Assembly (NCBI GenBank): GCA_003342895.1
Contig: PTFA01000272.1
Coordinates: 1,237,491-1,301,490, forward strand
Origin: Casuarius casuarius
Lineage: Eukaryota > Chordata > Aves > Casuariiformes > Casuariidae
Direction of reading: 5' to 3'
Length of the DNA stretch: 64,000 nt
Below are positions 2,954 through 56,185 of the stretch, piece by piece. The notes under the pieces were generated by a model. It worked only from the letters and a program-made list of their open reading frames with translations. It was not told the origin of the DNA and did no database searches. Every line of letters begins with the position of its first letter. The first letter of the stretch is position 1. A program made the translations under genes and the position numbers.

Positions 2954-3050
2954 TCTGACTGCCCCTACTCAGAAAAAGTCCCAAGTATTAAAATACCAAT
3001 GGACATCATGGAGCAGGAACCTTTCCTAAGTGATAGCAAACCTGCCGACA
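2954..3050 (+). CDS. SLC4A4: SLC4A4 97-bp alternative cassette exon
   Basis: The exon is preceded by TTTCACAG and followed by GTGAGT. It holds 32 codons plus one base, so skipping it shifts the frame. The translation matches the mammalian NBCe1-A/B exon with only two differences that I can see (MEQE for MEQQ, KPAD for KPSD). Its 97-bp length equals the segment known to be absent from the mammalian NBCe1-C mRNA. Confidence 0.95.
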
Positions 3051-6000
3051 GTGAGTAGAACTAACCTCTTGCATGCCTGCTTGGCTCTGACTTGCAGTAC
3101 CAAAAAAATATATATATATCTATTGAGAATGATTTTTTTTCCTAAACCTTGCCTATTACTTTAAATTTTTTTTTTCTTTTTTAGTTTCCAGGCCTCTCTG
3201 TCGATTTTGGTTTTGTGTTTTTTTTCTTTGTTCTTTACAAAGCTTATGTTATTCCTTCTGGTGCCTCCAGCTTACATGCTTTTATCCAGCTATTAACAGG
3301 TCTCATGGTAACTCTTTCTCTCCTTCTCTCTTTAACCCCCAATGCGCTCAGCCCATGTCTGGCCTTTGCCATTTCTTGTTTTAACTCTGCTGATTGCTTC
3401 AGTCTTTCCTGTGACCCTCATGTTCTGGATTTGCAGCATGTCTGAACTGCATCACTGTCCGTTACTGTTTGTTTCCTTAGGTTCCAAGCAATTGCAAAAA
3501 TCAGCACTTTAAAAGAATAATTAAGTGTGTCATTGATCTCCGTCACGCATTAAACTGACAAGGCAGTGATCATTTGACCATTAACATGTTTCCCTTCTTA
3601 GGTGATTTGCTTTTGTGCTATTCTGTTTCTTTTTACTTCCTTGTGTTATTACCCACAACTGATTATTATAATCTTCATTTTCAGCCACTTTCACTTTCTG
3701 TTGTTATTCTCTGTTAAGTGAGGAATCAGGAAAAGCAGCTGACAAGCTTTCATACATTAGCACTGATTTTTCAAAATACTATGAGCAACAGGTTGAATCC
3801 TGAAATATATATGCTGCCTTTTCATAAGATGGGAAGGGAGAAGTAGGAACGACAGCATTAAAACAGCACTGCCGTGATGCCGGCAATAAGATTTCTAGGA
3901 GTAAGGCTTAAAAATGCACATCTTTAGATCCATAAAGTATCATTTGTGATTAAGAGTTGGTACCAAAGTCCCTTGGCTTTCAGCAGCACTGAGGTATATT
4001 TGGCAATCATAAACGTGGTGCTGTGTTTTTAGATAAAAGAACACCTAGAGATTCCCATTATAAAACAAAGCCAAAAAGAAAGAGCCGGTTCCTTTACTAT
4101 GTATATATTCTCTGTGTTTTGCTGAAAATACAGGAAATAGCAGTGTTGTGCTGATGAGTGAAAAGAAAGGAAGTGAAATCCACCTTGAACAACCAAACAG
4201 ATCCTCCCTCTGTGAAAATGCCTTGATATGCTAAAAATCAATCACATCTTAAAAGCTGTTGCACAGGATTTTGTGATCAGATGCACTGATTTCAGTATCA
4301 TTAAGGATGAAATAATTGAGGAAAAATTAATACTTCTGCCACAAATCTGGGTAAATCAGTGATTGATGTGTCAAACAGTAGTCTTTTTGTGTGTTTGTAC
4401 ATTTTTACAATTCAGAAATTGATTTGCTCTCCTTTATTTAGAAACAAGGCAAAAAAAAAAGTTTCAGGTCCTTGTAGCTAGAAAGAGTAGCTGGAATCCA
4501 TCAACCCTGTGGCATTAGCCTAGGCAGATAACTATGCTCTGAAATGCAAAGTATATTACTAATAATATTCACAGCATTTAGTACCTGAGCACATTTTGCA
4601 TGATCAGAGGGCTTTGCAAACGCTTAATGCACCCTTCAGCCCCTAAGGCAGTGAAGTGGATTCCAACCTTTTCTCAAGCCAAATACAAAACTCATTTTTT
4701 GCTCCGTAGCTTTCCTTCCGCAATAGCAGGAATAGGATTAGTACGAGCAAAGAGCGTGCTTCACCACGCGGGGTCAGGAAAGGAAAGTGATTTCAGGCAG
4801 CAAGCCCCCTATTTTCTCGCGAGGTGCTAGGATGCCACGGTGAGGAGCACAGGGTCACTAAGGAGGTAGATGAAAGGTAAGTTCCCCGGTTCTCAAGGTG
4901 CTGAAACGAGGCCAAGAAAGGGAGTAATTTGCCTGGGAAGGAATTTGGGAGTTTCCTGACTCCGGGTTGTGCGCCCAAACCCCCGACGAGGGATTCCCAA
5001 GCCCTTTTTGGCAGGGAGCTCTGAGCACTGCCAGGGGGCACGGAAACTCTCAGGCTCACCTGGGCTGTGGCCGGCTTAGAGGTGGCTTGTGGCTTCCCGC
5101 GCCCCAGGCGGAGACCCTTGGGCAAGCTCTGACGCCTGTGTTTAGCCTGTCTGCTAAATACAAAGGGGATTTTCAGGCTGTCTGGTTTCTCGTGCCCCGT
5201 TTGCGCCAGCCAGGTAACAGCAGCAGTAGATGAGCCACCGCTTGGTGTTGTTTATCCACGCATATAGTTATATATCTGCACGTGCAAAGGCCCACTTCTG
5301 AGTGCAGCTCGCCAGGCGCTCTCTGGAAATGAGTCTTTTGGTCATATTGGCAGTTCAAGGCTTTTTATCTCGGAGGTCGGATTTAAACTTAGTATTTTTA
5401 TTTGCAAGCTGTGAGATTCACGCGGCAGGAAGTCAGCCCTGAAAGGAGCTGCCAGATACACAGGGGTTTGCGGGGCGAGCTGAGGCTGTGCTTTGGAAGC
5501 CATGCATGCCGCGTGCAATGACCAAAAAGGCTTTCTTCCCTCCTCCCAACAGGAGAAAAATCACCAACATTCCTTGAACGCCATACGTCATGCTGAAAAA
5601 ATTCCTTTTCTTCAGTCACACACCATGCCAAGGTAAGAACCTGCAAACCGCTACCTNAAAAAAAAAAAAAAAACCAGAGGGAGAAAATTGCTGTTTTCCT
5701 GTCCTTCAACCACGTAACAGAAGACAACGGAAATAACCTGTTTTCCCCCCGTCTGTGGGGGATAATGGAGGAAATAATGAGCTTAAATTGCAGCAAGGAA
5801 GATGCAAGCCAGCATTGCCAAGAGCAGCGAGAGCACGGCTGTGGCTCAGACGCTTAGGAGCGCCTTGGGCCTCCCAGCGCCGCGGGTCGCATCCTAGGCC
5901 GAGAGGGCAGTAGTCTTCTGCAGTGTTAAAGAAATAGCTACAGCTCCAGGTGTCAGAAAGTGTGTCAAATTAAGCTTCAGGGATATAAGCAAATTATTTC

Positions 6001-32428: not shown

Positions 32429-32434
32429 TTTATT
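32429..32434 (-). promoter_or_regulatory. GC: GC polyadenylation signal
   Basis: AATAAA on the minus strand, about 86 bases downstream of the GC stop codon. Confidence 0.75.
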
Positions 32435-32519
32435 GCCGCCGCGCGTGCCGGGTCGCGCCACGCTCCTGCTGGCCCACTCCCCAGCGCCGGGCGCCCCTCG
32501 GCTTCCAGCGTAGCCGCCC

Positions 32520-32573: not shown

Positions 32574-35500
32574 CTGGAAGAGAGGCAGAGGGCCCGGGCG
32601 CCATCTTAGGGCCTGGGGAGGCCGGCCGCAGCCCGCGTTGTCGCCGCCCCGCGCACGGTGCCACCCGCCCAGGAGATTGGGCACCGCCGGGTGGCTGTTT
32701 GGGGGCCCCGTGGGGGGTTTTGCGTTACCTGCCGGTCGCAGTAGAGGGGCGGCGCGTTGGCGGGGCAGCAGGTGGAGGCGAAGGCGGCCTTCCGCTCCGC
32801 CAGCTCCGCCAGGTGCTGGGGGCCGGCGCCACGCGCGCTCTGCGCCACGGTCTCCTTCAGCCTGCGTGTCGGGGGCCGGGCGTCAGGGCGGCGGAGGGGC
32901 TTTGGTCGCCCGTCGTGCCCCCGCGCCTCGCTTCTCCCTCGGCCCTTACCTCTTCTTGAAGTCGAGGAAATCCAGCTCGGCGTACCGGCCGCACAGCTCG
33001 CCGGCCTTCGCCAGGAAGGGGAAGAGCTCGCCTCTCATCTGCTGTTTCTGCGGGGCGAAAAGCGCACAGAAATCAGGGGAGCGTGCCGGTGCTCGGCGCC
33101 CGGCTGCCCCAGCCCGCTGCCCCGCGCGCCCACCTTGCCGTCGAGGCAGGCGGAGGAGTCCCCGGCGGCGCAGCACTCCCCCATGACCTTTCTGGAGGCG
33201 TCGTACAGCTTGCTGAGGAAGACGTCGGGGACGCTGGGGTGCCGCCGCGCCAGCTCGAACATGTACCTGGAGCAGAGCGGGCGAAGAGGGTCGCCAGCCG
33301 CCTTTCCCCCAAACCCCGGCGCTGCCACGCGTGAAACCCTGCGGGTTGCCGCCGTGCCCCCGAGAGGCAGGAAACCGGCGGGCGACGTTGCCTTTCCCGG
33401 GACGGGAGCGCCGGGGCCGCTCACCTGTAGGAGTGGAGGCCCCCGTCCTCGCCGCACAAGTGCTCGTTGGCCGGCTGCTGGACCTCCGGCAGCTGGGGCG
33501 ACTTGGCCGGTTTCAGGGAGGAGATGCAGAAGTAGTTTTGCATCACGTTCTTGCCCTGGCAGCAGCCGGCAAACCTCTCGTCTTTGGCCGAGAGCGCGCC
33601 GCAGACTTTGGCGGTGTGCTCCGACAGCTGGGGGAGAGGAGCCGAGAGCGCGCGCTGTAGGTGCGCGAGGGAAACGCCAGCGGCGCTGGGCATCTCCCCA
33701 GGGACTGGAAAGGTTGCAAACCCTGGGCTGCGTGGGGCTGCCCCACTGCTGTGCTGGGGGGACCGGGGGTGCTGCCACCTCCTCGCCTGGAAAAGGTGCT
33801 CCAGGAGGTGGTTTTGGCCAGAGCACCCTGCGCGCGGCAGCCCCGGGGCCTCCCTACCTTCTTCTGCATGCAGTCTTCAGCCATCGAGCCGCAGCACTGG
33901 GCAAACACCTCGGCGGCGTCTTCTGCTAGAGGGAAAATTTCCTCAAATGAAGCACTTGGTATCTTCTGAGCAAACATTGTTAGGTAGCTAGACGGACACA
34001 AAGCGTAAAAGGGACTTAGGCGTTGCAGCTCTTCGTTCTCCTGACTTACCCATGAAGACCTGCTGGGGACTTAAAGCCTCAATGTCTCCTTACAAGATCT
34101 GCTTAGTTTGTGGTATGGGTGCAGCCCTGGCCAGAAACCAAGAATCCTCTCTCATTGCAACTTTGAGGGTTCACGTTTATTTTTGTCAAACTGCGGAAGG
34201 AAACTCAAGCTTTTCGTTATTTTCTGGGGAGGAGAAAGCAGGCAGAAGAGGGAGGTGCTTGCCCATCCAGGCCCACTGCAGGCGGACGACAGGGAGCACG
34301 CGACTCGCTGTGCGCCTCTGCTAAGCACAGTGCCTCTCCGCAGGACAGCACAGCGGGCTTATTTTTACACCTTAGGTGAAATGCTTCTTCCTGAAGCCCC
34401 CCGCAGCCAGGAACCACGCTTTCAAGCTGGAAAGCGGGTGCCGGTCTGACCCGCACTAAAGCGTAGCAAGTACCGTTTCCCCCTTGTACCTGAACTTTAT
34501 TTTGTCCTTGCCGTATGCCGCGAAGCGGGAGCAAACCCTGTTTGACAGGAGGGTGAGCAGGGAGAGGGTTTTTCTTTCCAGCTTCTGGAACAGAAAGGAG
34601 AAGACGTGCGTCAGACGCCGGCAGATGCCGGTGCTGGCAGCCTGCAGTGGTGTTGCAAGTAGCTGGGGGTATCGCCGGGATTTTGACTGACTGCGTTCAA
34701 AACCGTTTACATCTCCCAAAGCTGGCGGAGGGGAGCGGAGGGGGCTCACCTCTTTCAAGAAGCAGACGGTGGGTGCTGGGGAGATGCAGCAGGTGGAGAC
34801 CATGGAGAGGAAGCTCCTGGCAGAGCCCAGGAGCACGGGCAGCGGCGCCTGGCCGTAGTTGCTGGCGTACTCATAGAGAAACCTGCGGGAGAGGTGGGCT
34901 GGCCTGGGGACCTCGCCAACGCGGCGGGCCGCCAGATGCTCCGTTCCCAGCGATGCGGGGGTTTGGGGCGTCGCACCCGCATCGGGCATGCACGACGGGA
35001 CGTCACCCTTCTGCAGGGACCTCCGTGGGCTTCAGTAAGTCTTTGGCTGATTGCATCAAGCAATCGAGTGACTTGCTCCTGCCCGGAGCGGTTTGTTGTT
35101 AAGGCTGGGCCTTGCAAAGTAGCACAGTGACTTCCAGGAGAGACCAAGGGGTGTTTTGAGCCCATGACCGTGCTCACGGTGGTTTGGTGCTCACCTGTCG
35201 GCGAAGCCCTTGGGGTCCCTGGCGAAGTCGGCGCAGACCTCGTCGCCGGCCGGCTCCGCGTAGCGGGGAATCTCGCGGGGCGGGTGCTGCAGGGCGGCCA
35301 GGCAGAGCTTGCGCTCGAGGCCCGTGTGGACGCAGCAGGCGCCCGCATCGGCGTGGTGCGGGAAAGGCGAGCTGGCGTCGCAGGACTTGGCCGACAGCGC
35401 CGACGACTGCGGGGGCAGAGCGAAGGGCAGTGAAAGGGAGGCTCACGGGTTCACCAAAGCCCTCGTGGTTTGGGGGTTTTTTTTACCTAAACCACTGACA

Positions 35501-38500
35501 TTCTCTGCAGGGGGGACTCGGCTGTGCTACCTCTGGCTCAGAAAGGAGATGGGGCCAAAAATCTAATACACGGGGAGGATAAAGCCCCTAGACCTGCAAT
35601 TTTATTTTGGGGCACATCTTCCTACAGCCAGTTCAGGCACTAGAGACCTCATAGCACGTGGCTGAAAAAACAGGCAGAAAAGGCTGAAACGAGCTCCGTA
35701 GGAAGTTCTCTCTCCAAGGCTGGGAGCTCTTTCCCCAAATTAAGTGTTTCCTGCTGGCTGCCCCGTACTTCTGCAGACCGCCACCGCGTTTTCCTCGACC
35801 TACCCCGTCGTCGTAGCACGAGGGGTCGGCGTCCTCGGTGCAGCAGGTTTCGGCCAGGGAGACTATTTCACGCACCAGGTGGCTGATCTCCTCGAAGGTG
35901 GCGTTGGAGAACTTCATGCTGTTCATGACGATTGTGCTGGGAGCAAAGAGAAGAGGAGGAACCCGTGGGGTTTTGGGGGGAGAAAGCATTTCTGTTTCTT
36001 AAAAAATCGTATCAACATCGATCTACCGGAAGACGATTTAAAAACATGACCCGGACGGTGGCAGCTTTGGCCCAACCCCTTCATTTTTCTGTGCCAACAG
36101 TTACGGCAGCCGCTTGTGCTGCTCGAGGTGAGGACTTGTACCTACAGGATTGTGGTGCTAAAGCGGATACCAGCTTTCAAAAGCTCATCCCGGCTCCTGC
36201 CTGATTTCAGGCTGGAGGCCGAGGTTTTCAAAGGAAGTTAAGGGCATTAGGTGCCACCTCTGTTATACTTCTTAATCATTTAGGCACCTAAAAGGGCTCG
36301 AATAGGCCCAGTGAGAAGCAAACTTTTCTCCTGCAAGTCGGCCCATCAAAAGCAATAGGAGCCCTCATATGCAGAGAGTGCATAAATCTTCCTGTTTCTA
36401 TGTTTTATGTTTTTTTTTCCTTGGCCATGGCTTATGTGCTGAGCTTCCCGGGAGGGTGAACGTCGCAGGAAATACATACAGGGTTCGGAAGTTGTCTTTC
36501 CCCATGGTCTTGTACTCTTGACACACTTTGTCCCGGACGTAGGCTTTACCTGCAGGCCCAGAGAAAGGAGGGTTCACCATTGAGCCCCGCGACGGCGCGG
36601 GTGTAGCGGGGCCGTGGTTCGGGCCGCCCCACGCCTCCCCGGGGCGCTGCCGTCGCTGCGCTTGCCTTGCAGCCCCGGTTCTCAGCCAACGAGCCAGCAA
36701 GCGCTTGCACCTTGCCAGGGTTGCGAGTGCACAGCCGGCGGCTCGCTGCACGCCTGGGGCTCCGTATGCACGCGGCGCCGGAGCCGAAAAGGGCCCCGCC
36801 GCCGTTTTGCATGGCTTTCACCTACGTTACCGCCCCATGTTCCCTGCACTTTGGGTGGCTGGGAGGACGCTCAGCAACGCTCGTTTTCGGTTGCCTTTTT
36901 CCTTGCAGAAAAAAGCCCGGCGTGGCTCGGCTTGATTGGGTCTATTATTGAAAACACCGCGGTCGGTTTTTTTCCCTTTTTGCAAGCGGAAACGGTCCCC
37001 ACTGCATGGAGCAGCCTGTTTGCACGCGGGGAGAACAGAGCAAGCGACCGGGTGCTCTGCAGGAGGGAGCGCGATGGATGCAACGAGTTTGCTCGTTAAA
37101 CTCTCCTAAGTGATACGATAAGCAGGGCTGTGGGGCAGCTCGGGGAAGCCGGGGGAGAAGAGTGACGGAGCTGGGAAGCTGCTGCGGTGGCCAGGTGCCC
37201 AAAGCACTGGAAATATTTCATGAAGTCTCGGGATGCCTTAGGCTACTGAGGTGCCCAAACCATTCCTCACAGGAGGATTCGAGCTGCTGAACAGCTCAGC
37301 CCTTCTCTGGAAGTGTCACTCGCGGTTTCTGGGCGTTAGCTTTGTTTTAGTTTACGGCTTCTCTTCTCATTTCAGTTTCAAACCTCGTCGCGGTCCCTGA
37401 GACGTGGAAACTAGCTGCTAGCGTGCTGCAGACCAGCAGAGGCTGCTCTCGTGGCGTGGATTTTTGGGAAGCAGCTGTGGTACCGCAACCCTCCTGGTCT
37501 AATTCGATATTCGTACGCAAGGGGGAGAGAGAAAACCCGGGAGAGAGACCAGGCAAACTGTCGAGGAGATTAGCCCCTCGGCCAAACTACTCTCATTTTT
37601 TTTATGTCTGAAGCAGAGACGTGCTGCGCCCCTGTTAAAATAAGACCCGATCGTGGCGGTCAGGGGCATGCAAACAGCAAAGATACTGCTGATGACTATT
37701 TTGTCCCTTGAAAATGCTATCGATTTTGCTCCAAACTGCATTGGGTAGACTTTGGTCTAGCAGGTCTTTGGTACCAGCAGGGTAAATACAGATATCATTC
37801 TGGCATCTCTCCTGTAACTCCGACGTGATCTTTCCAGGGAGTTTCGCACTGGGAAAGATATTTGCCGGGAAACTATGATGGCATTTCTGAGAAGAGGCTG
37901 GGGGAGGGGGGAGGCGGGCGAAGCTTTCCAAAGGCCCTTTGGTCCTGATTTTTGAAACCTTTCGGAAGTTGGGTTTGTTGAGCTCTTGTTCCCGCTGCTG
38001 TCGATGTCGTTGCAGGACCACGGCGAAGCCCCCCCAGAGCTCGCCCAGCCCGTGCAAACGCATTGGGGGGCTCCGAAGGAGCGCAGGGTATCCAAAAATA
38101 TTCGAAGGGCAGAGCCGGAGCCAGGGTAAGGCGGGATGGCTTCCTCGGCATTGGTTTGGCTGTACCCGGCAGCTGCAAAGCCGCTCTGCAGAGTTAAACG
38201 TTGGAGCAAAAAACCTCTCTGGAGCAAAGGAGAGGCACCGGCACAGCCAAGGCGCGTTGGTGCACTGTTGCTTGGGGCTGGCTTGGGGTTTTTTTCTTTT
38301 TTTTTTTTGGTATTTGCAAGCTGGTCGCTGGAAGAAAGGGGAACCCACGCTCGTTCCTAGCAGGAGCAGCGCCTGCCGGTCCCTGGCAAGCGAAAACTCA
38401 CTCAGTTTATTTCCATTTTCAGAAATTGGTACCCAAGAGATGGACTTTGACGGGGCTTTGGGGGAAGGTTTACGACTGCCTGCTGAGCTGTGAAGGAGGC

Positions 38501-38631
38501 AAGGCTTTGCCCGCTGCACAGTTTCTATCTGAGGGCTTTTTTCAGCGTAACGGCGCTCGCGAAAGGCTCTTACCTCGGTGCTCGGCATGACCCCAAGCCA
38601 CCAGCAGCAGCAGGACCAGGGCTGCCTTCAT
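32520..38631 (-). CDS. GC: Vitamin D-binding protein (group-specific component), complete
   Basis: GC is a secreted albumin-family plasma protein that carries vitamin D metabolites and scavenges G-actin. Twelve coding exons (listed separately) join in phase to give 483 residues plus stop, against 474 in human. Residues 1-16 (MKAALVLLLLVAWGHA) are a signal peptide. Three albumin-like domains follow, with the CC pairs and spacing of the family, for example C74-C75, C83, C96, C111-C112 and C122, numbered as in the human precursor. SALSAKSC, EYASNYGQAPLPVLLGS, SLLTLLSNRVCS and LAQK-like segments match the family strongly. An N-A-T sequon is at residue 54. The C-terminus is longer than in human and has two extra cysteines. 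The gene spans only about 6 kb and its introns are short. Identity is certain. Confidence 0.97.
32729..32861 (-). CDS. GC: GC exon 11
   Basis: 133 bp encoding (R)LKETVAQSARGAGPQHLAE through PPLYCDRQ, with ACGCAG acceptor and CAG|GTAACG donor. Confidence 0.93.
32950..33047 (-). CDS. GC: GC exon 10
   Basis: 98 bp encoding KQQMRGELFPFLAKAGELCG through DFLDFKK, with CCCGCAG acceptor and AGAG|GTAAGG donor. Confidence 0.93.
33134..33266 (-). CDS. GC: GC exon 9
   Basis: 133 bp encoding RYMFELARRHPSVPDVFLSK through ACLDGK, with CTCCAG acceptor and AAG|GTGGGC donor. Confidence 0.95.
33425..33627 (-). CDS. GC: GC exon 8
   Basis: 203 bp encoding LSEHTAKVCGALSAKDERFA through GGLHSY, with CTCCCCAG acceptor and ACAG|GTGAGC donor. 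Confidence 0.95.
33858..33987 (-). CDS. GC: GC exon 7
   Basis: 130 bp encoding (S)YLTMFAQKIPSASFEEIFP through EDCMQKK, with CGTCTAG acceptor and AAG|GTAGGG donor. Confidence 0.95.
34490..34584 (-). CDS. GC: GC exon 6
   Basis: 95 bp encoding KLERKTLSLLTLLSNRVCSR through DKIKF, with GTTCCAG acceptor and TCAG|GTACAA donor. Confidence 0.95.
34750..34882 (-). CDS. GC: GC exon 5
   Basis: 133 bp encoding RFLYEYASNYGQAPLPVLLG through PTVCFLKE, with CCCGCAG acceptor and GAG|GTGAGC donor. Confidence 0.95.
35195..35406 (-). CDS. GC: GC exon 4
   Basis: 212 bp encoding SSALSAKSCDASSPFPHHAD through DPKGFAD, with CCCCCGCAG acceptor and ACAG|GTGAGC donor. Confidence 0.95.
35804..35936 (-). CDS. GC: GC exon 3
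   Basis: 133 bp encoding TIVMNSMKFSNATFEEISHL through DPSCYDDG. The acceptor is CTCCCAG and the donor is GGG|GTAGGT. It holds the first CC pair. Confidence 0.95.
36247..36291. repeat. Possible ancient interspersed-repeat fragment in GC intron 2
   Basis: TTAGGTGCC at 36247-36255 and GGCACCTAA at 36283-36291 form an inverted pair, flanked on the left by TTTTCAAAGGAAGTTAAG. This wording resembles an old palindromic amniote repeat family. A similar phrase, TTTCAAAAGGCATTTAGATGCC, lies near 59018. The assignment is by memory of the wording only. Confidence 0.25.
36480..36549 (-). CDS. GC: GC exon 2
   Basis: 70 bp encoding KAYVRDKVCQEYKTMGKDNF and RT, with CTGCAG acceptor and CCCT|GTATGT donor. 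Confidence 0.93.
36550..38573 (-). other. GC: GC intron 1
   Basis: About 2 kb from GTAAGA to CTGCAG on the minus strand. Overlapping open frames here on both strands show no family resemblance, so I treat it as intron. Confidence 0.85.
38574..38631 (-). CDS. GC: GC exon 1 (coding part)
   Basis: Encodes the signal peptide and EHR plus the first base of a Gly codon. The start ATG is at 38631-38629 and the donor is GAG|GTAAGA. Confidence 0.95.
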
Positions 38632-38729
38632 GCTGCCGTCGGGCCCGGCCGGGGGAGCAGCTCTCGCACCCGCCTTGGCCCTTGCAGGCTGCTTCGTGCA
38701 AAGCGGCGCTGGAAGCGCAAAGCCCGGCG

Positions 38730-38735
38730 TTTATA
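38730..38735 (-). promoter_or_regulatory. GC: GC TATA box
   Basis: TATAAA on the minus strand, about 100 bp upstream of the GC start codon. It predicts a transcription start near 38700 and a 5'UTR of about 70 nt. Confidence 0.75.
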
Positions 38736-38757
38736 TCGAGTTGCTGCGAATTGCCTG

Positions 38758-38770
38758 GTGAATGATTAAT
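38758..38770. promoter_or_regulatory. GC: HNF1-type site, proximal GC promoter
   Basis: GTGAATGATTAAT matches the palindromic consensus GTTAATNATTAAC at all but two defined positions and lies about 23 bp upstream of the TATA box. HNF1 drives albumin-family genes, including mammalian GC, in hepatocytes. Confidence 0.7.
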
Positions 38771-38882
38771 GCTGCCGAAGGGGCAGAGGGTGAGCATCCT
38801 TGGCCTGCCGGAGATAGCGTGGGCTGACCGGCAAAGGCAAACACACATCGCGGGCTGCCGGCGCCCCTGAAACCCAGACGGT

Positions 38883-38895
38883 TTTAATAATTAAC
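38883..38895. promoter_or_regulatory. GC: Second HNF1-type site upstream of GC
   Basis: TTTAATAATTAAC differs from the HNF1 consensus at one defined position. It lies about 150 bp upstream of the TATA box. Confidence 0.65.
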
Positions 38896-38905
38896 TGTGG
38901 GAAAT

Positions 38906-38996
38906 AGGCACTTTGGGAAAAAAATAAATGCATTGGGAAAAAATGGATGCATTGGGAAAAAAATAGATGCGCTGGGCAAAATAGATGCTGTGGGAT
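38906..38996. repeat. Short tandem repeat (about 18-20 bp unit) upstream of GC
   Basis: Four to five imperfect copies of a unit like GCATTGGGAAAAAAATAGAT lie immediately upstream of the distal HNF1-type site. Confidence 0.7.
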
Positions 38997-41900
38997 CTTA
39001 GATGGCTTTTCTCTACCTGTGATTGAATTATCGGTGTCATAGGAATGACAAAGAAGGATGGGCAGAGGGAAGCGTACGGCATGCATCATACGAGTGCAAA
39101 GCAAGGTGCTGCAAGGCCAACAAACGGTCCTCCCAAGCCCGCGCGAGGGGGAAGCTGGCACTTTTGGGCGTCAAGGCCGCAATTAAAGCGCAGGGCACCG
39201 GGGAGGAGGAAAACCCTCCTTCGAGTCAGGCAACCCCTCCTGGCCGTCTTCGGCTTTGGGAGGCCGCCAGGTGAGGAGCTGCCCGGCTCCTCGCTGGAGT
39301 CCCAGGGAGGAGAAAACAGCCGACCTCGCCGGCGGCCGGGGTGCTGGGTCCGGGTGACCGAAACGCCGGCACGTGCCAGCAGTGCAGGGTCGCCGGCACA
39401 CTTTCCTGCGCCAGGGCTCCCGCTGAGATGGGGGCGGCAGCTGAAATGCTGCCCAATACACAGAACGGGGTTTTTTTTGGTTAGACCTGCAGTTCTTCAA
39501 GAGTAACGGCATGGCAAAATATGATGTATCTTTGACGGCTGGAAGACTTCGCAGCTGACTACTTGATTACTAGGTACTTGTGGTATAAACCCAGACAATA
39601 GGTTGATTTGGTGTAAACACGGCTTTTTTTTGGTTTTTTTCCTCTCGTCTGACTATCATCCGCAATTTAAGCTGTAATTTCACAGCCGCGGCGCTGCAGA
39701 ATCACCACCCGTTCGCGATATTTTTAGCAGAAATGCAGGTATCTGTTAAAACACTTTTAAGGTAATTGCTCATAAAATCCTTGCAAATCAAGGGGAGGCT
39801 GAACAGCTTATCAAGCAGTGAAACGGGATGTGAAAAACTGCCTGCTAACTCAGCCCCCGCGTGCTCGCTCCCCTCTTTCCCGTTTTGGCTCTGTAGCCGG
39901 GGCGTAAATCCCGTTTGCCGGCGGTGATTTTCCTTCCCCGCGGTTTTGCTGGGCCGGCGTAGCTCTCCCCAGACGTCCCGCGTGCCCCGGGCGCGCTCCC
40001 CGCTCTGCAAACAGGTCAATGCGCCCCTGCCTGCCCTCCGTCCCTTTGAACCGCTTGCCCAATACCCTGCGGTGCGGCTAATCATTAACGACACCCCGGA
40101 TTTGTCGCCCTGCCGCTGGCCTGGGTTCTCATCCCGCCTCCCCTCGGGTCCGGGCTGCCCTCGCTTTGGTGCCCGCTGCCCGGTTATTGGTACAGCTCCC
40201 TAACGAAGGGGCCGGATTAGAGGCAGGCTGTGAGCTCTTCTCGGGGTGCGGGTGTTCGGTCCGCTTCGTACCCAGCCTACGGGCCCTAGGGCACTTTTCT
40301 GGGGGTGCTTCATTTTTGCAGATTCCCGTTGCAGTGCGTTATTTCAACTTGTGGAAGAAAACTGCACCCGACCTTGCAGCNGGGAGATGCAGGCTGCAGG
40401 GATGCTAGGAACCTCCCTTTTATTTGNAAGAGTTTATTTGCACACCTGCATGTTACAGCTTTTAAACANAGGGAAAACAGTAAGAAAGTGCTTCCCCTGC
40501 GCGCGCGGGGATTTGAGAGGGGCGGTGAATGGCTCTGAGGAGTGAGGATTTACAGCGGGTGATCCGAGGTGCATGCCAGCAAATAATCCCCGATGAAAGA
40601 GAAGGGGATTCTTGCTCTTATGATAAGCAACAGGACAGAGGGAGAAGTGAAGCTGGAGAATGACAGAGGAAATGAGACTTGTTACCTCCAAATTAATAAA
40701 TATCTTGGCATTTTCAAGTCTTTTGTGGTGCAGTGGTGCTTGCTGGGGCCGGGGCATCCTCGCAGCTCCCTTTCACAGAGCCGGAGGGGAGCCACCGAGT
40801 TTTGCTTGGCCNGAGTCTGGCTGGGGAAGCAAATGGTTTAAATCTGATTTTTTTGTTTCTGTCAGGACCCCTTGGGGTGCCCCCAGAATTACATGACCTC
40901 CCTGTACATTTTTTTCTGTTAGAGGGGGCAGGAAGACGACACACGTTTGCTGCGTGAGCGCAAGGCTGTTGAAGAGCAGCAGCCTCTCTGTGTCGGTTCA
41001 TTTTTAATGCGTCTCTTAGCNCGGTCCTCTCTGTAGCTGCACAAACACACCAGATAGCTGTGCACAGCGAAAACTGCTCCTAACTGCTGCATGCACGTTC
41101 TGATCAACTGTGACAGCAATACTAGCAAAAAGAGAGTTGTTTTAACGGTAAGGACTTAAGCAGCAAAGTGCAACACATTTGGTAATACAGAACAATTCGG
41201 GCTAACAACCGCCAGCACTTACGCTGCAGGTCAAGGACTCNTCATCAGGAAGCACCTGTGAGATGGAGATTGGGAAGAAAGAAGTCTGACTGTCTCCTCC
41301 CCTCCTGCAGCTAAAAAAACCGCTGGAGCCGATAACTCAGGTAACGTGGGTTTGTGCCCTGGCTCCGCCAGGCACTCGCTGAGCGACCTGCGGCAGCTCG
41401 TGCGAAGCGCTCTGCCCTCTTTCCCCATTGAGAAAGCGGGAAAATAATTCATTCCCCTTTCCTTTCTTTTTTTAAGATACAGCTCTGTTTGCAGCCCGAC
41501 CACGGACGAACCTGGGCAGGGGATAAATGGCCCTAACAGACAATTTCTTCCCTCTCGTCTTGCGAGCGGAGGTGCAGGTCCAGCCGCGTCGCCTCCATTC
41601 CCCTCAAAATGTCCAGACCAGATATCCTGGCACTGGGGGAGAAATGTTTGCAAAGACATGAAATGGGAACAAGGTGCCCAAGGTCCCCCGACTCTCAGTG
41701 NCACCCGGATAACCAGCTGCCACCTNTTCGCCCCCAAAACACCCGGTATCTCTAGAAATAAAAATGAAGTTGGCCAATTAGGCTGACTAAAGTCAAAGCA
41801 CGATAGGTCTCAGTTCCACAAATCACCTTTCACAGGTGCGTTTTAAGAAGAAGCGGGTGATTTTTAGCACTATGGTTTGTTGGCCAGCGTATGTTGTGAG

Positions 41901-43190
41901 TCGTCCTTAACTTACATCCTTTCTTCTGGGTGGTCCTCTGATCACGAAGCAGCTTCTCCAAAAGCCCCTGTGAACATTTGGCGGCGGGGTGCAGAGAAAG
42001 AGACACCTGCAGAGGAATTGAACTAAGTATGGTTCTCCTCAAAACATCTGTATTGGCCAGCCGGCTTTCTGACTGCCCTTCGTTTCGCTGCCTTTTTAGA
42101 ATCAACTTTTAATTTTTAATTTAGACTCCTGAAAAGCTGATTTGAAGTTAGGTAACTGGCTCCTGAGCTGTCACGGAAAGGAGAGTTAGGACAAAATGCT
42201 GTGAAAGTAGTTATGTAGTCAACAAGAAGCTGTCTTGGACGTGTGTGTGAAATTGTGAAGAACGGTAGAAATTTCCTGAATTTATTATTCTAGATAAAAA
42301 GTGTGATTAAAGAAAAAGTGTGTTCAGAGGGCCAGGTCGCTGCTGAGCACAGATGCAAACGTGGAGCGGTTCGTGCTCCAGCCCACATCTGCCAGCACAC
42401 ATCTGGCAGCAGCCGGGCGGCATTTCCGGACGTTTTTTGCTCACTTTCTTACGTGATCACCCGTTGCAGACATCACGTTGCGCTGTGCTGTTACTCAGCA
42501 CAGCAGCGTGAAGGCGGCTGGCCGGAGACNAGTATTAGCGAGAGATGCAACGCACACTGATGCTTTTGTATCGGATATCGGAGCTTTAGAGGGTCTTATC
42601 GCTACATTTCTACAGTGCGAGAAGCGCTAGCTCTGTGCAGTCCTTTAACTTTGGCTTTTTTAATACAAGACTTAAGCATGCTGCGGCTTTTGCTGTGATT
42701 TGCAACTTAAAAGTCAGAGTTTTTAATATCATGTCTTTCCTTAAGAAATAGAAACGAAAGCAGAAAGGGGAGCGCTAGGCATCCCGGAGCCTAGCGTTAT
42801 GTACAAAACGTGGCCAGGGTAGCTCGGACAGCTTTCCACGGATGAGGCGTTAATTAATCCCTTTTGAGTAACTACAGCAGAAGTCACCCCTTCAAAAGCC
42901 TCAAGGATGCTTTGCCTTTCTCAAGCTTTCGGGGGGGGGAGCAGACACATGGTGCCGGGCTCTGGTCCGGTGATGAGTCCTCAGTGAATTTAGGACAACA
43001 GGGAGCCGGACAGGTTGGTTTGAGGGAAACGCAATGAAACCGCGAGCAAACNTTAGGGACGATTTAGGAAAACAGTAATCATCAGGCTGGGTTAAACCAC
43101 CCTTTCGCCCGGCGCCCTGCTTCTCGAGAGGCACCTCACCGGGCGCGGGCTGCCCGCGAGAGCTCTGCAGCCGCTGGGGGGGGGGGACCC
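38997..43190. other. Intergenic region between GC promoter and protamine-like gene
   Basis: I see no gene with support in these 4 kb. The left half is GC-rich, with chance open frames on both strands. The right half is more AT-rich. A G-run (43176-43187) and CpG-rich sequence mark the approach to the small gene at 43316. Confidence 0.55.
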
Positions 43191-43194
43191 GCTG

Positions 43195-43247
43195 TGACGT
43201 AATGCATTGCATCACAGCGCGGCGCTCTGACGTCACCGGGCGCGTCA
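43195..43247. promoter_or_regulatory. ATF/CREB site cluster upstream of protamine-like gene
   Basis: Within 53 bp there are TGACGTAA (43195-43202), ATTGCATCA (43206-43214, reverse complement TGATGCAAT, a C/EBP-ATF composite), the perfect CRE TGACGTCA (43228-43235) and a half-site CGTCA (43243-43247). The start codon is about 80 bp downstream. In mammals CREM acting on CRE sites switches on protamine and transition-protein genes in spermatids, so the layout suits a sperm gene. A weak TATA-like TTAGAAA lies at 43261. Confidence 0.65.
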
Positions 43248-43315
43248 CAACCCGCCCCCCTTAGAAAGCGGCGGCGGGCAGCGAGGAGGCACCGCCGTCC
43301 CACGCGCCCGGGGCC

Positions 43316-43460
43316 ATGGCGCAGCGCCAGCGCAGCCGCAGCACCAGCAGGAACTGCCGCTGGAGGGGCCGGCGGCACAACCGCGCCGGGCGCTACAGGC
43401 GGCGGCGGCGGCACCACCGGCGGCACCACCACGGCAGCAAGGGGCGGGATAAGCTGTCGG
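43316..43460 (+). CDS. Protamine-like gene, exon 1
   Basis: Encodes residues 1-48 and the first base of Gly49. It ends at a strong GTGAGG donor. Confidence 0.7.
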
Positions 43461-43652
43461 GTGAGGGGAAAGGAGCCGCGAAGCCTCGTCAGCCCGACGG
43501 CTGTGGGGTGGAGAGGCTGGAGGGTCCCGCCAGGGGTGACGTCCCGGTTGAGGCCGGGGTGCCGGCACTCATGGGAGGCTCCGTTTCCCACAGGTCACCG
43601 GTCCCGGTCCCGCCGGATGAGGAGGAGGAGAAGGAGGCGGCAGAGCTATTAG
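43316..43652 (+). CDS. Protamine-like sperm nuclear basic protein (Arg/His-rich), two exons
   Basis: The exons are 43316-43460 and 43594-43652. The donor is CGG|GTGAGG, the acceptor is TTTCCCACAG, and the 133-bp intron splits a Gly codon in phase 1. The product has 67 residues, of which 29 are Arg and 7 His. It starts MAQRQRSRSTSR, has an R5-HH-RR-HHH core (residues 28-39), and ends in a run of seven Arg then QSY. Protamines replace histones and pack DNA in the sperm nucleus. The SR dipeptides at the start and the Arg run with terminal Tyr resemble the avian protamine galline, while the His content recalls mammalian protamine 2. The start has a strong Kozak context (GGCCATGG). ATF/CREB sites lie upstream and AATAAA follows at 43750. 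Chicken galline genes are reported intronless, so an intron here is unusual. It could be a divergent ortholog or an independent basic protein. Confidence 0.72.
43594..43652 (+). CDS. Protamine-like gene, exon 2
   Basis: Completes Gly49, then encodes HRSRSRRM, seven Arg and QSY, with TAG at 43650-43652. Confidence 0.7.
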
Positions 43653-43749
43653 ACGCCGACGCCGCCNTCTCTGCCTGAAGGTCTCGGCCACCGCAGGCCA
43701 GCGACGACGGCCCCGGGCACCGGCTACCCCTTGAGCAACCCAACCCAGC

Positions 43750-43755
43750 AATAAA
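43750..43755 (+). promoter_or_regulatory. Polyadenylation signal of protamine-like gene
   Basis: AATAAA about 98 nt after the stop codon, followed by a TG/T-rich stretch. The short 3'UTR suits a protamine mRNA. Confidence 0.7.
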
Positions 43756-44750
43756 ATCCTGCCAGTGACTTCTTTTGTGCTTTATCGCCTTGTAGCAGCT
43801 TGGAAAGGGGCGGCGGGGGTGGGGGGGGGGGGCTCGGGTCCTTCCCCGGCGGCTGCGCCGGGGTCACGCGCCGGCCCCTTGCCAGTGCAGCGCCCCAGCG
43901 AGCCACCGCTGCCGGACCCACCGGGACCTGGCGCCCGTATTTAGGAAAAGNGCGGCGGCCGGCACGGCTCTAGCTCCGCCGAGCTGAGGCTGTGCTCCGC
44001 AGCGAGGGGTTTTAAGCCGCGTGCTCATCCTCGCCCCGCGGCGGTCTTCAGTTTTCAAGTGCGAGCTGTCACGGCGGACAGACGGAGAGCGATATTTCCA
44101 CCGGTTTTCCATGAGCCGGCAATAAATGCAGCAAGAAAGAACCTATANCCGAGTTTTCTTTGTCGTGTCTTTATATATATACACATATATTGCAAATACG
44201 CCAGTGTTAAAGATAGTTTATTGATCAGCTTTGACACTGGGCGTATCACAGGGGCTTCCAGCGAGGAGCCGGCCCAGCGGCCAAGGTGCGGCGTGTGGCT
44301 TCGGGTGAGACCCCGGCGGGACAGGGGAAAGCGGGTGGGAACGGGTCCCTCGCAAGAAANAGTGGCTTTCACACCACCATCCTGTAAGGAATACCTCAGC
44401 GGACTGGAACTGCAGTGGGTTTTTTGTTTTTTTCTTTTTCTGAGGAGAAAGGCTGGGCCTTCCTCACCGCTCGGAGGCCCTTTCCAGCCGGCGGCAAAGC
44501 CCCCGTCGTCCCTGGGGCCGCGGCCTCTCCCGTAAAACGCGGCAGCGAAGCCTCCCAGGCGTCTCCGGAGCTGAGGGCATCCCCGCGGCCGGCGGGAAAG
44601 CGGAGCGGCCCGCGAAGCCGGCGCCGGGGCGGCAGGGTTTGGCCCCCGACGCCCCCGCGGGGCGGCTTCACAATGCCGGCGGCTTGAAAAGGCGCCGGGC
44701 GGCCCCGCGGCGCTCACACGCTCGGCAGCGCCGGCCCGGCCCGGCGAGGC

Positions 44751-44786
44751 ATGGTGTCCGGCCCTCGGGGCCCGCACGGCGACTGA
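44751..44786 (+). promoter_or_regulatory. Upstream ORF before second small basic gene
   Basis: An 11-codon ORF (MVSGPRGPHGD, stop TGA at 44784-44786) ends 12 bases before the ATG at 44799. It would be in the leader only if transcription starts further upstream, which is not known. Confidence 0.35.
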
Positions 44787-44798
44787 GCTCCCGCCGGC

Positions 44799-44913
44799 AT
44801 GGCGCGGCACAGGGGCCAGNGGCGGGCGGCCGGCGGCCCCCGCCGGGTCCCCCCCAGCCGGAGGAACCGGGGGAACAGGAAATTCTACGACAAGCCGCTG
44901 GGCAAGAAGAAAG
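44799..44913 (+). CDS. Second small basic gene, exon 1
   Basis: Encodes residues 1-38 and the first base of Gly39. The N at 44820 falls in codon 8. Confidence 0.58.
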
Positions 44914-45219
44914 GTGACGGCGGAGCCACGCGGGGTTTTTTTGCTGGGTTTTCCCTCCGTGGAGCCGGCCCCGCGCGGGGCTGGGGCGGGAGGCACCGGG
45001 GGCTATGTAGAAAGCAAAACTCTTGGTTTCACCCCATACGGGCAGACAGGTTGGGTGATGCCTCCTCGGAGGGCCGCAGGGAGGAACCGCCTGCGCGGGA
45101 GAGGCTCCCCATCCCCACCACCCGTCCTCCCTCCCTCCCGGCTTAANTCGCGCCCGTGTGTTTCCCGGGCAGGGTACGTACGCGTCTGCGCAAGCTACTA
45201 CTACTGGAAAAAGAGATGA
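44799..45219 (+). CDS. Transition-protein/protamine-like small basic protein, two exons
   Basis: The exons are 44799-44913 and 45173-45219. The donor is AAAG|GTGACG, the acceptor is TTCCCGGGCAG, and the 259-bp intron splits a Gly codon in phase 1, as in the neighbouring gene. The product has 53 residues. It begins MARHRGQ, similar to the MARYR start of type 1 protamines. A basic stretch, SRRNRGNRKFYDKPLGKKKG, follows, and exon 2 encodes YVRVCASYYYWKKR. Size, basic content and a late intron leaving a short last exon recall transition proteins TNP1 and TNP2, which act between histone removal and protamine loading. Sequence similarity is weak, so homology is not proven. The start has a good Kozak context and AATAAA lies at 45419. 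An N at 44820 (codon 8) leaves one residue unknown. If that N is a spurious extra base, the frame from the ATG would change. Confidence 0.6.
45173..45219 (+). CDS. Second small basic gene, exon 2
   Basis: Completes Gly39 and encodes YVRVCASYYYWKKR, with TGA at 45217-45219. Confidence 0.58.
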
Positions 45220-45418
45220 ACCCCCCACCACCACCACCCCGTGAGCCAGGTCCCACGTGCGTCCTCGCCATCCAGCCTGTGGGAAACGCCACCACCGCCG
45301 GCCCCGGAGCAAGCCAAGCAAGCAGAGATTTCGACCACCTGAGACACCAAGAGGAGCTCCACCAGCAGCCTGGCGGGTCCCCAGCATGTGTCATTAACAG
45401 CAGCGGTGAAAACCTGTC

Positions 45419-45424
45419 AATAAA
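45419..45424 (+). promoter_or_regulatory. Polyadenylation signal of second small basic gene
   Basis: AATAAA about 200 nt after the stop codon, followed by a GT-rich stretch (GGCGTGGTGTGTG) near 45448 that fits a downstream element. Confidence 0.65.
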
Positions 45425-47429
45425 GTCCTAGAGCGCAACCGTGGCCTGGCGTGGTGTGTGCTACCTGCCATAGGCATGCGCGAGGCTCGCCAGCAAAAAT
45501 GGGCTCTGGCTGCAATAAAATGTGTTGTTTCATGCTATAACGGGGGGTCTAGAAGGGAACTTGCCCAGGGGAAGCCCTTGTTTTTGGTTAAATCCTATTT
45601 CCTGCTGTGCAAAAGACTGCATAGGCAGCAACAACCGGGCCCACTGCAACCACCACCNCGGGGTCGCTCGTACTCTGGCTGACATCTGGGCTAATTGCAA
45701 CGGGGTAGCAGAGATATTAAAAAAAGTCCACATATATTAAGGAAGAACGTAAGGCCCGAAATGTAATGAAAACATGTTTTGTTTTGGTTTTTTTCCTTAC
45801 TTCCAAACTATTTTGCAACACACTAAAAGCAGATCAGCTAATATGACTATGGCAACACTTTCAGCTGGTCTGTATTTATGTGCCACGAGATCAGGCCAAA
45901 TGTGTTTACCGAAGCACATTTGATTTCTTTTTAATTCTTTCTTCAAAATCCTAAAGGCCGGTCTCGTGCTGCCCACATGTAGAGGTATAACCAGCATAAA
46001 ACTGTCACTGAAAGAGGAGGAAAGCAAAGCCGATGCACCCGTGTGCCCCCCCCCCCGCCCCTGGCGTCTGCACAGCGTCTCCCGGCAGCAGCCCGGCTTT
46101 GTCCCGCAGCCTTGGCGCTGCGCTCGAGCACATTCGGGGCTGCTCAGATGTTAACAGATAAAAAATAAATCAATAAAGCACAGCAGCTATGTCTTTCAGG
46201 GGCATGCAGATGCATGAGCAACTTGGGTGATTTAGGGCCATTGACGCTTCAGCGCTGGCTGCAGTTTCCGTAACAACATAATGATGTTTTAAAATTGAAT
46301 TTTAACCTGGCAGGGGAGCATAATAATCAGCTTGGGAAAAACGAGACACGGAACGAGGGACAGAGTCTGCCACTCTCCAAGTGAGCAGTAAGAGAGTGAT
46401 GTTGCTCGACCAATTACTGTGAACGATGAAAACCGGTTAATTCAAGACAGAAGCGACACCATTTGGGTCAGAACAGCAATATCGGGTTCGAATGCAGGGT
46501 GGCAGCCAGAAGCTTCATGATAAGTCTGTCCCCCTCCCGCGTTTCCGGGAAATGNCCGGCGACTGTATTTCAGCAGAGTGCTTCAGGGCTGCCTCGAAGC
46601 AGTAACCGGGTCGCTATCCAGTTCTTAAGGTCAGTTGTATTGCAGAGGCACAGCACACATTTCAAGCACCCTGCCTATCTGGATAATCATTTTCACTGAT
46701 TTTGCTTCGTAAGAGTAGGTATTCAGGGCAATATATGTGTGTAACATATCATACATAACGTGTAAAATATATACGATACAACCAGTATGTGGAATGCATT
46801 TTATACAGTANATAAATCTATACATGCATATCCTGTGTCTGTTGAATATTTAATACGAATGTAGAATTGACTCTACTAAATAGAGTCTCTGTATTGCATG
46901 TTGACTCTTTGCACTGAAAGATGCTCAAAGAGCCCAACAGCAGCTACCTGAGCTGCTAACAGCACAGGCCCTTGGCCTGGGACCCGGCACGCTGCTTTTT
47001 TGGCAAGGGAGCTTTTAGCACACCCTGACTTTCTTATCCGTCGAGACCTCTCTTCTGGCTGCTGAACACGCAGGTCTCGTTGGCTGGTAGCCGGCTGCCC
47101 CGCGGGGTAGCNGCAAACGCCACGGCGAGAGGAGCCTGGCCCGGGAGCAGGGGCCGCCGGGCCGGACACTGGCTCCCCGAGGGGGGACTGCTGGATGCTG
47201 GAAATGTGCCCTCGGGAGAGCTGGGGAAAAGCTGCTTTAAGTGCATTAATGAAAAGAAGAAGCAAGGAAACAAGGAAACGAGGAAACAAAAAAAAAGGTG
47301 GAAAAACCACTCGGCCCACTCACATCGCCGAGATGCCCCACGCGTCCTCGTTTTGAGCACAAAAGCAGCAGTGTCTCGCACTAGCCTGCTAGTTACACTT
47401 AAATGTTCACTCCAGCATTTTGGAGTTTT

Positions 47430-47472
47430 CTTTTCCTTTTTCTTTTCTTTTTTCTTTTTTTTTTTTTTTTTG
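47430..47472. repeat. Pyrimidine (T/C) tract
   Basis: A T-rich run with interspersed C, ending in about 18 T. Confidence 0.8.
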
Positions 47473-50400
47473 CACGGTTTTGTCTGTGGGTTTTTCAATT
47501 ATTTATTTTTTGAGGTAGGAGCCGCTGTGGGGTTATCTTTATTCGCTTCACCAGCCTTTTTCCCCCCCCTAGCAGTTGCCTGTGCGGTACATTTCTTGTT
47601 TGTTTGCTTTTGTAACCTTCTGGTTTTTATTTTTGGGGTTTTGGGGGGGGGTTTTTTTGCTGCTTTTGGGCCCAGATGCCAGCCCCTGCTCACCTGTGGC
47701 CGGGGGCAGCCCCGCAGGTGGTGGCACTTCCCAGCTGAGCAGGGAGTGATGAGAAAAGATCGGCACCTGGGGCCAGTCCCCATTGGGGGACCAGGGCTTT
47801 GGTGCTCTCCTGCTCNTCAGTGACCCTTCCAAATTTGGGCTTTTTTTCCCCCAACGTGTGGGGTTGGTGTTTCTGTTGATCCCTAGGGCAGGCAGTCTCC
47901 ACCAAAAGCTTTGGGGCTTCATGTTCCTGTTAAATAGGAGGAGATTTTTCTTTCTTTCTCTGAGTGTGGGTGCTTTGGGGGGTTGCAATGACATCTGATC
48001 CATGTATTTCTGTTATATGTGATATAATGTTTTTATTAAGTGTGTTCTGTCTCTGTGGCTCACTGTAGGAGCTTGCTTGGGGATAGGAAACCATCAGCTG
48101 AGCTGTGGACCTCTCTGCTGCATCTGGGGGATGTAACAAAATCCCTGTCACCTTCCTCCAAGCGTGAAACCAGGATGAGGTGCAGGAAAGTGTGGGCTTC
48201 CCCTCTCCACCNTGCCGAAACACCGGAGGATGGATCTAAGGTGAAATCCCCGAGGCTTAGCCAGCACCTCGTTGTGGCATTCGTCACGAGGAGCATCACC
48301 CTGCGTCCATCAAAGCCTTGCAAATAACACAACCGCTCCAACAGGGAGCGAGTCGGATACTTACTGGATTTATGGGTCTGGTTCTGTAGCCTGATTAAAA
48401 TCTGCCCAAAGGGAAGAGCTTTGGAGCAAAAGTGACCATACGCCTTTTAAATTTAAGTTTGCTTTGCCTTGCTCAGTAGTTGCACGTCCCTCTCTCCCTG
48501 TCAGCGCGGGGAGCCCGTATCGTGCTCCAGGGCACTGCTCAGCCCTGCGCCGAGGAGCCGCGGCATCGCACAGAGGCAGGAAACCGCCAGGCAAGTAAAA
48601 AATGGTGTAATGGGAATTCAAAGCAATAATCGTAGTTTGGCCACAGTTTGCTGGGGGGCCCGGACCAAAGTTGCCCCATGCGCTGCTTTTGCACCCTGTC
48701 AGTGACCCTTCTCTTGGAGCAGATAATTTTCCCAGGGGCTAGTTTATCCCTTCTGAGCACTTCTCAGTGCCTGCAGGCAAGGGAAGTAAAAGGGAAAGAT
48801 GGGGAGAATCACATCTATTATTTATCGGGGTGAAAATTTTTGCTATTCCTTGTTTAGAGAATTCACTTCAGTTTTGTACAGAGTTGATTCCCTCCAAAGC
48901 CTGAGGCAAACGTTTGCACGCTGTGCTCTGAGGGTGCTTACCGGGCTGGAGTAACTGCTCTGGGCATAAGGTCTTAATGTACAAGACTGCCAACAGCGTG
49001 TCTCTTCTGTTCTTTCAGTTTTCTGAAGACGTGCTGAAGCAAGTGAGGACTGAAAGCTCCGTTTTATAGTATTATGGGTGTTTAAAATGCATCAGCGACA
49101 ACCCAGCCAAGGCACCTCTGCCCTGCCCAGCTGCAGGGCTTCGGACCTTGGGAAGCGCTGGCGGCTCCCTGACTTTCTTAGAAACGCGGAGACGCTCGTC
49201 CCTCGGAAGCCTGTGAAGAGCTTGGAGAATCTGCGTAATGGACAAGGAGGCATCAAAATTCTCCGTACTTCCAGCTGCTTCAGCACTTTGCNGGAAGCTG
49301 TAGGACTGCGCGTTCCCTGCCCAAACAGGAGTTTGGGTTTTTTCCCTGTTATAGTACTAGTGTGGCTTTAACTGTTTGGGATGGAGTGCAGGCAGCACTG
49401 AAAAAGCAGCGGTGGCACTTGGGATGTTGCTGGGGGCTCGGTAACGCAGAGCCCAGCTCGCTGGTGCAGGGGTTTTGGGGAGGGCGGCGTCCTGGCCAGC
49501 CCCCNTGCTGTGAGCGTCCCACGCTCCAGCCGGGCCCCAGCAGTCCTCTACCCCGCGCAGGGAGCCAAGGAGAGAAACTCTTCCTCTTCGCGGCGCATCG
49601 CGCCTCTGCTCGGGAGCCTGGTAAGGACGTGGCGAGCGCTGACNCGTGTTGCCTCATGCCGGTGCTTTGGAAAGTTCACTGCGATACGCGTGGGATAACC
49701 GAGCTGCTGTTTAAGGGAATGCTTTGCCTTGATTGCCTGCTGTCCCGTTTTGTTCAAGTATTTACTTCACATATCAGGAGCACGTAAAAACTAACAAATG
49801 TCAAATCTAGGCATAGGCAAGTAACCAGAAGTGAGTTAGTGTTGTTCAAAGGTTACTGAAGTTCTTAGAAATACTGGGGAAGATAGCTGGGGGGTTTGTT
49901 TCAATCTAACCAGTGAAGATTCAGAACCTATTTTCCTATTTTCTGTGAAAGGAGGAGGGTGTTTTCATGCTTGAAATACAAAAACAGGTAAATACATTAA
50001 CTATATGAATGCAGTTCATAAAGAAAATGATTAACACCCTCCTAGCGACTTGANAAATTGCTGAAATCAGTGAATTGGAGAATGGTGCCTATCAATTGAA
50101 CTATGTCCTGGCAGGCCGATAACCAGCCGAGTAGCAGACNTCATGCACTGGGATGTATCCTGCCAACCTGGAACGTCACAAGGGTCACNTTTTTAGCTTT
50201 CTCTTGTATCACCTCTGAAAATGTAAGTGCCAACTTGGATGAATGGGCTTAACTCATTTGAATCTGTGATAGGCTTAAAGGCAGAAGTCTGTGCCTTAGG
50301 AAGTTACTGCTAGATTTCTTCCTTGGAAAAATGAAATAAAAAATTGATGGACTTGTCTTTGCTAATGGCCAGTTGCATTTACATCGATCCAGAGCTATTT

Positions 50401-56139: not shown

Positions 56140-56185
56140 GTATAGGTATACATACATATCTATATATATGTATATAGATATAAAA
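56140..56185. repeat. TA-rich simple repeat, partly palindromic
   Basis: ATATCTATATATATG is followed closely by GTATATAGATAT, forming an imperfect palindrome. Confidence 0.6.

Follow-up and report, generated by a model that had tools for sequence, protein, structure and literature searches.

A pair of small basic protein genes next to SLC4A4 and GC in Casuarius casuarius, a candidate sperm-chromatin locus

In the genome of Casuarius casuarius, two small genes lie side by side on the same strand close to SLC4A4 and the vitamin D-binding protein gene GC, and each encodes a short basic protein. On balance, we favor the reading that both genes are genuine and form a sperm-chromatin pair, in which gene 1 encodes a protamine and gene 2 its transition-like partner. 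The structures of the genes, the conservation of gene 2 in a lizard, the position of the pair next to SLC4A4 and GC, and two CRE sites upstream of gene 1 were observed directly. From these observations we infer, with good grounds, a role of the pair in sperm. Positions below are those of the window, which is the whole 64-kb stretch of DNA analyzed.

Structure of the two genes

The coding sequence of gene 1 begins with the ATG at 43316 on the plus strand. Its first coding exon (43316..43460) contains 48 codons and the first base of a Gly codon, and is followed by a GT...AG intron of 133 bp in phase 1 (43461..43593; donor GT at 43461, acceptor AG ending at 43593). The second coding exon (43594..43652) ends with the stop codon TAG at 43650-43652, and a poly(A) signal AATAAA lies at 43750..43755. 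The encoded protein, MAQRQRSRSTSRNCRWRGRRHNRAGRYRRRRRHHRRHHHGSKGRDKLSG-HRSRSRRMRRRRRRRQSY, has 67 residues, of which 29 are Arg (43%) and 31 are Lys or Arg. A single Asp is its only acidic residue, and Glu is missing.

Gene 2 starts 1146 bp beyond the reading frame of gene 1, with an ATG at 44799. Coding exon 1 (44799..44913, plus strand) is supported by protein relatives and is matched by the lizard protein described below. The GT...AG intron of 259 bp (44914..45172) is again in phase 1, and coding exon 2 (45173..45219), which encodes the conserved YVRVCASYYYWKKR end, terminates at TGA, 45217-45219. Its own AATAAA is located at 45419..45424. The product, MARHRGQXRAAGGPRRVPPSRRNRGNRKFYDKPLGKKKG-YVRVCASYYYWKKR, is 53 residues long with 18 Lys or Arg; the X stands for one residue left undetermined by an N at 44820 in the DNA.

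In each gene the intron interrupts a Gly codon between the first and second bases, and the start codon has a purine at -3 and is followed by G at +4. The preliminary description had proposed two same-strand, two-exon genes for small basic proteins, with strong Kozak starts, phase-1 introns within Gly codons at the junctions 43460/43594 and 44913/45173, and a poly(A) signal for each gene. Our gene-model scan recovered the junctions and signals, and the sizes, the spacing and the start contexts agree with that proposal.

We notice an extra AATAAA at 44121, between the two genes, which in the scan combines with another acceptor to give a 96-aa alternative of gene 1. The window also contains 57 single Ns, two before position 40000 and 55 after it, spanning 40381-63879, towards the contig end. 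Perhaps they represent ambiguous or heterozygous bases.

Gene 1 resembles a protamine

Vertebrate protamines are small proteins in which clustered Arg residues make up about 40% or more of the chain and acidic residues are almost lacking. The composition of the gene 1 product agrees with this picture, and the earlier proposal that gene 1 is protamine-like is thus borne out in its size and Arg content. Among the closest known systems is the avian protamine galline of chicken. The gene 1 product is similar to it in length (67 vs 62 aa) and is likewise built of Arg-rich blocks, with seven consecutive Arg near the end and Tyr as the last residue; gene 1 differs in its intron, its runs of His, a Cys and a Trp. 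Against galline, the score of gene 1 was reached by 34/2000 shuffles in local alignment and 8/2000 in global alignment; with the chain ends held fixed, the signal was weaker (121/2000). Shuffle tests of gene 1 against human PRM1 and salmine gave no signal. Gene 1 may be a protamine of the galline lineage.

For gene 1, a database of 5.8 billion proteins yielded 19 candidates and none at E 1 or better, so that the frame of gene 1 is unproven by conservation. Pfam gave no match at E up to 10, including Protamine_P1 (PF00260). When PF00260 was searched over the whole genome, two candidates were scored and nothing was found; the same search was positive in none of 14 control genomes. Gene 1 itself, used as a query against its own genome, returned two scored candidates, at E 2e-22 and 9.6, which are the exons of the gene itself, and no other copy.

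The CRE sites upstream of gene 1 provide a further point of similarity. A CRE-type site, TGACGTAA, is located on the plus strand at 43195..43202, 114 bp before the ATG, and a palindromic CRE, TGACGTCA, at 43228..43235, 81 bp before it. The motif TGACGTMA occurs in the 64-kb window at these two places only, 81-121 bp before the gene 1 ATG. Counted on both strands, this amounts to three matches, and at least three occurred in 26/100 shuffles. Because the window count is not above chance, the argument from the CRE sites is one of position alone. CREM drives protamine and transition-protein genes via a CRE close to the start. Gene 1 shares this feature of CREM-driven spermatid genes with its two putative sites, and gene 2 has no CRE before it. 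Based on its structure, its composition and the two upstream CRE-type sites, gene 1 is probably a real gene.

The main ordinary reading of these data is that gene 1 is simply the galline of this species, and that in chicken the intron was lost or the gene was relocated by retroposition. In that case, the locus would consist of an ordinary protamine gene and an unannotated neighbor, an account which overlaps with the explanation we favor and differs from it in novelty. The similar length, the layout of the Arg blocks and the alignment signal, though weak, all speak for it. It also agrees with the genome searches, since the gene 1 query found no separate galline-like gene, and the galline query found none either, with 0 first-look candidates, which is a weak negative. 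On the other hand, the galline genes of chicken lack introns, unlike gene 1; the alignment signal falls when the chain ends are fixed. In addition, gene 1 was found once, whereas birds are described as having two identical protamine copies (PMC7126135). We regard this reading as somewhat doubtful.

Gene 2 is conserved in a lizard

Gene 2 is firmly supported as a real conserved gene by its protein relatives. The search of 5.8 billion proteins returned two of them: P0001, a protein of 56 aa from Podarcis lilfordi that is named only 'hypothetical' (E 5.2e-11), and P0002, a protein of 87 aa (E 1.2e-9). A profile search gave, among 173 candidates, the same two at E up to 10 and no others. In the GTDB contigs 50 pattern matches, and in the IMG/VR contigs 43, were checked for relatives of gene 2, and 0 were confirmed in either set.

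The similarity to the lizard protein P0001 is not a matter of composition, as 0/2000 shuffles reached its score. Using P0001 as the query against the whole genome of 1.19 Gb (1.194 Gb), we found three matches, and the best two places were the exons of gene 2, the first at E 0.0044 and the second at E 0.31. The third lies on another contig at chance level (E 9.7). The two proteins share the core, are 65% identical in the alignment and differ at their ends, where P0001 has a Ser/Cys-rich N-terminus and terminates in GGKK. P0001 is likely the orthologue of gene 2. The preliminary description had named a frame that is not conserved in related species as evidence against its proposal; for gene 2, the lizard protein has an intact frame and the same core.

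Leaving out the extra stretch of P0002, 30/53 positions are invariant in gene 2, P0001 and P0002, and the conserved core reads RVPPSRRN...PLxKKKGYVRVCA[ST]YYYWK. Since this core is specific and rich in aromatic residues, and stands beside a basic stretch, charge alone is inadequate to account for the conservation of gene 2. The start of P0001, rich in Ser, Cys and Arg, is unlike that of gene 2; judged from these proteins, it is as if the N-terminal end evolves fast and the core is fixed.

P0002 carries 31 additional residues exactly at the exon junction of gene 2. In the protein sequence alone, the ends of this stretch read like a translated GT donor and AG acceptor. The frame of P0002 thus seems to read through an intron placed where gene 2 has its own.

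Gene 2 and the mammalian transition proteins

Gene 2 had been described earlier as transition-protein-like. Its size and its Lys/Arg content (K+R 18/53) agree with the description of these proteins as small and rich in Lys and Arg, but no similarity to TNP1 could be detected, and the conserved core is unlike TNP1. Mammalian TNP1 (55 aa) and gene 2 (53 aa) have similar sizes and a mixed Lys/Arg content; they differ in locus and in the protein end, and show no alignment signal. Against human TNP1, 1319/2000 shuffles scored as well as gene 2, and 1798/2000 scored as well as P0001. Human PRM1 showed no similarity to gene 2 in the shuffle test.

The Pfam scan pointed in the same direction, with no match for gene 2 at E up to 10 and none for P0001. 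P0002 had one weak match, SNaCT12, at E 0.31, far below the cut-off. Given the intron position in TNP1, the Gly-codon intron after the Lys/Arg stretch had raised the suspicion that gene 2 is a TNP1 orthologue. We reject this on the lack of an alignment signal together with the different locus. With no similarity to TNP1, the term 'transition protein' can therefore only mean that gene 2 works like one.

AlphaFold, run on the lizard protein as a single sequence, suggests with low confidence a helix and a hairpin, with a mean pLDDT of 68 and a pTM of 0.42 in the best of five models. On this model the lizard protein possibly holds a beta hairpin, and the Tyr/Trp-rich end of gene 2, together with the possible hairpin, appears unlike a protamine. 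Foldseek with the model of the lizard protein gave one match, at E 8. Among PDB chains, the best match was at E 0.14 for the gene 2 profile and E 3.8 for the lizard protein. Gene 2 alone matched the chain b-iTHR-110 at E 0.0083 with no single stretch passing, which we take as chance. Ribosomal proteins are among the weak sequence and fold matches, and none of these is significant.

These observations bear on the idea that gene 2 encodes a conserved small basic protein unconnected with chromatin, in sperm or elsewhere, for example a microtubule inner protein of the flagellum or a protein that binds RNA. A core that is specific and aromatic-rich, not merely basic, would fit such a protein, as would the low-confidence hairpin predicted in the lizard protein and the ribosomal proteins among the weak matches. 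However, neither the solved chains nor the fold search identified such a relative at the E values given above, the b-iTHR-110 match is attributed to chance, and a protamine-like gene adjoins gene 2. We consider this explanation somewhat unlikely.

Chance models and the case for gene 1

Other reading frames of this GC-rich region are also open, and an open frame by itself means little at this locus. For this reason, we scanned for the whole gene model and not for the ORF alone. A model had to have a suitable start context, a donor, an acceptor, a product of 40-110 aa with at least 30% K+R, and an AATAAA within 300 nt; the thresholds were loosened after the two models were known. On both strands of the 64-kb window, the scan found genes 1 and 2 and nothing else. 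None of 2000 dinucleotide shuffles of 43001-45500 yielded any model, and the same scan gave no further model in 100 kb of upstream flank, 164 kb in total with the window.

When the start-context rule was dropped and K+R lowered to at least 25%, four models appeared in the 164 kb: genes 1 and 2, an alternative form of gene 1, and a 41-aa model on the minus strand. An initial scan with stricter splice scores gave 0 models in the window, missing genes 1 and 2, and 0/500 in shuffles. Because it recovered neither gene, we rate the splice sites of both as moderate, acceptable rather than strong. The window was also scanned for tRNAs and Rfam families, and nothing was found.

These scans address the idea that only gene 2 is real, and that gene 1 is an accidental frame in the GC-rich DNA upstream of it, belonging perhaps to a promoter or a non-coding transcript. 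Several frames are open in the region, as noted above, and the idea is in keeping with the failure to find a database relative of gene 1 among the 19 candidates. Yet the start context, splice sites, stop codon, AATAAA and two CRE sites of gene 1 all fit together, and neither the 2000 shuffles nor the 100-kb flank gives such a model, which makes a chance frame decidedly improbable. That neither gene is functional, both being artefacts or decayed genes, can be dismissed as most improbable: the single Ns that occur within and near the genes, together with the contig end 18.6 kb away, might raise the thought, but the conservation of gene 2 in a lizard, with an intact frame and the same core, contradicts it for gene 2.

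Paralogy of the two genes was also considered and rejected, as they show no signal against each other (1129/2000 shuffles score as well). Gene 1 against P0001 was reached by 127/2000 shuffles, at most a faint hint of kinship in the sequences.

Proposed role in sperm chromatin

In the explanation that we favor, each gene is present once in the genome as searched, and the Arg-rich product of gene 1 is most likely a protamine, which would bind DNA in late spermatids and condense it. The upstream CRE sites would allow CREM to turn gene 1 on in haploid spermatids. The product of gene 2 is most likely a small basic protein in the nuclei of the same cells; we place it beside gene 1 in spermatid nuclei because of its protamine-like neighbor and the same two-exon design. 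It would act beside the protamine in histone replacement, as mammalian transition proteins do, and this comparison does not imply kinship to them. Thus we would expect expression of the genes in testis, nuclear location and DNA binding of their products, and a division of labor between the two.

We further propose, tentatively, that gene 2 defines a sauropsid family of sperm nuclear proteins of the transition type, with a structured core kept since the split of birds and lizards, and that it is encoded at the SLC4A4-GC locus beside a protamine gene with an intron. If this is true, birds possess a transition protein that arose independently, though some are described as changing directly from histone to protamine. 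A 2022 review describes such a direct change for some birds and fish, and raises the question of whether they have analogous transition proteins that are as yet unidentified (PMC9258737). Gene 2 is a testable candidate for such a protein, being conserved in a lizard, called 'hypothetical' there, and located beside a protamine-like gene. Gene 1, in turn, could show the form of an intron-bearing avian protamine.

Judged from the sequences, the pair next to SLC4A4 and GC may represent genes for packaging sperm DNA that have been overlooked. No such gene was named in the titles or abstracts met in searches of a full-text library, and the peptides YVRVCAT, YVRVCAS and RVPPSRRN occur in none of the papers in that library.

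The SLC4A4-GC locus

The gene order along the contig is SLC4A4 (+), GC (-), gene 1 (+), gene 2 (+) and the contig end, which coincides with the window edge 18.6 kb beyond the pair. The last matched coding exons of SLC4A4 lie at 2954..5593 on the plus strand, with a match at 2954-3055 (E 7e-14) and one of 13 residues at 5555-5593 (E 0.017); further SLC4A4 exons lie to the left, in the flank loci L001-L005. GC occupies 32726..38631 on the minus strand. Its exons from 36550 to 32726 were identified by Pfam matches to Serum_albumin and VitD-bind_III and by the human GC protein, and at 38631 there is a candidate exon for the signal peptide, similar to the beginning of human GC. Position 41092, a weaker candidate for this exon, was set aside. 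The Pfam scans covered the plus strand at 46000-64000 and 1-10000, and the minus strand at 46000-56000 and 31501-40500.

In human, GC lies between SLC4A4 and NPFFR2. NPFFR2, which would be expected beyond the pair, was not found in the window or in the ten flank loci.

The mammalian protamine/TNP2 cluster is located at 16p13 on the SOCS1 side, and TNP1 at 2q35 between IGFBP5 and TNS1. In the window, the best match of SOCS1 was no better than E 0.097, and that of IGFBP5 no better than E 0.33. With no credible matches to these neighbors in the window and with SLC4A4 and GC as the flanks instead, we reject the PRM/SOCS1 and TNP1/IGFBP5 loci. The pair has in common with the mammalian PRM1/PRM2/TNP2 cluster the arrangement of small basic two-exon genes side by side; it differs in its SLC4A4 and GC flanks and in the lack of a signal with human PRM1. 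The flanks support the earlier suggestion that the pair stands at a locus different from that of the mammalian cluster.

The GC gene is compact and GC-rich here, and its candidate start codon lies 4.7 kb from the start of gene 1, in divergent orientation. We also notice two tandem repeats in the window. One, within 27101-27267, has a 48-bp unit in 2.6 identical copies at 27141-27266. The other, with a 34-bp unit in 2.9 copies, is located at 63883-63979, close to the contig end.
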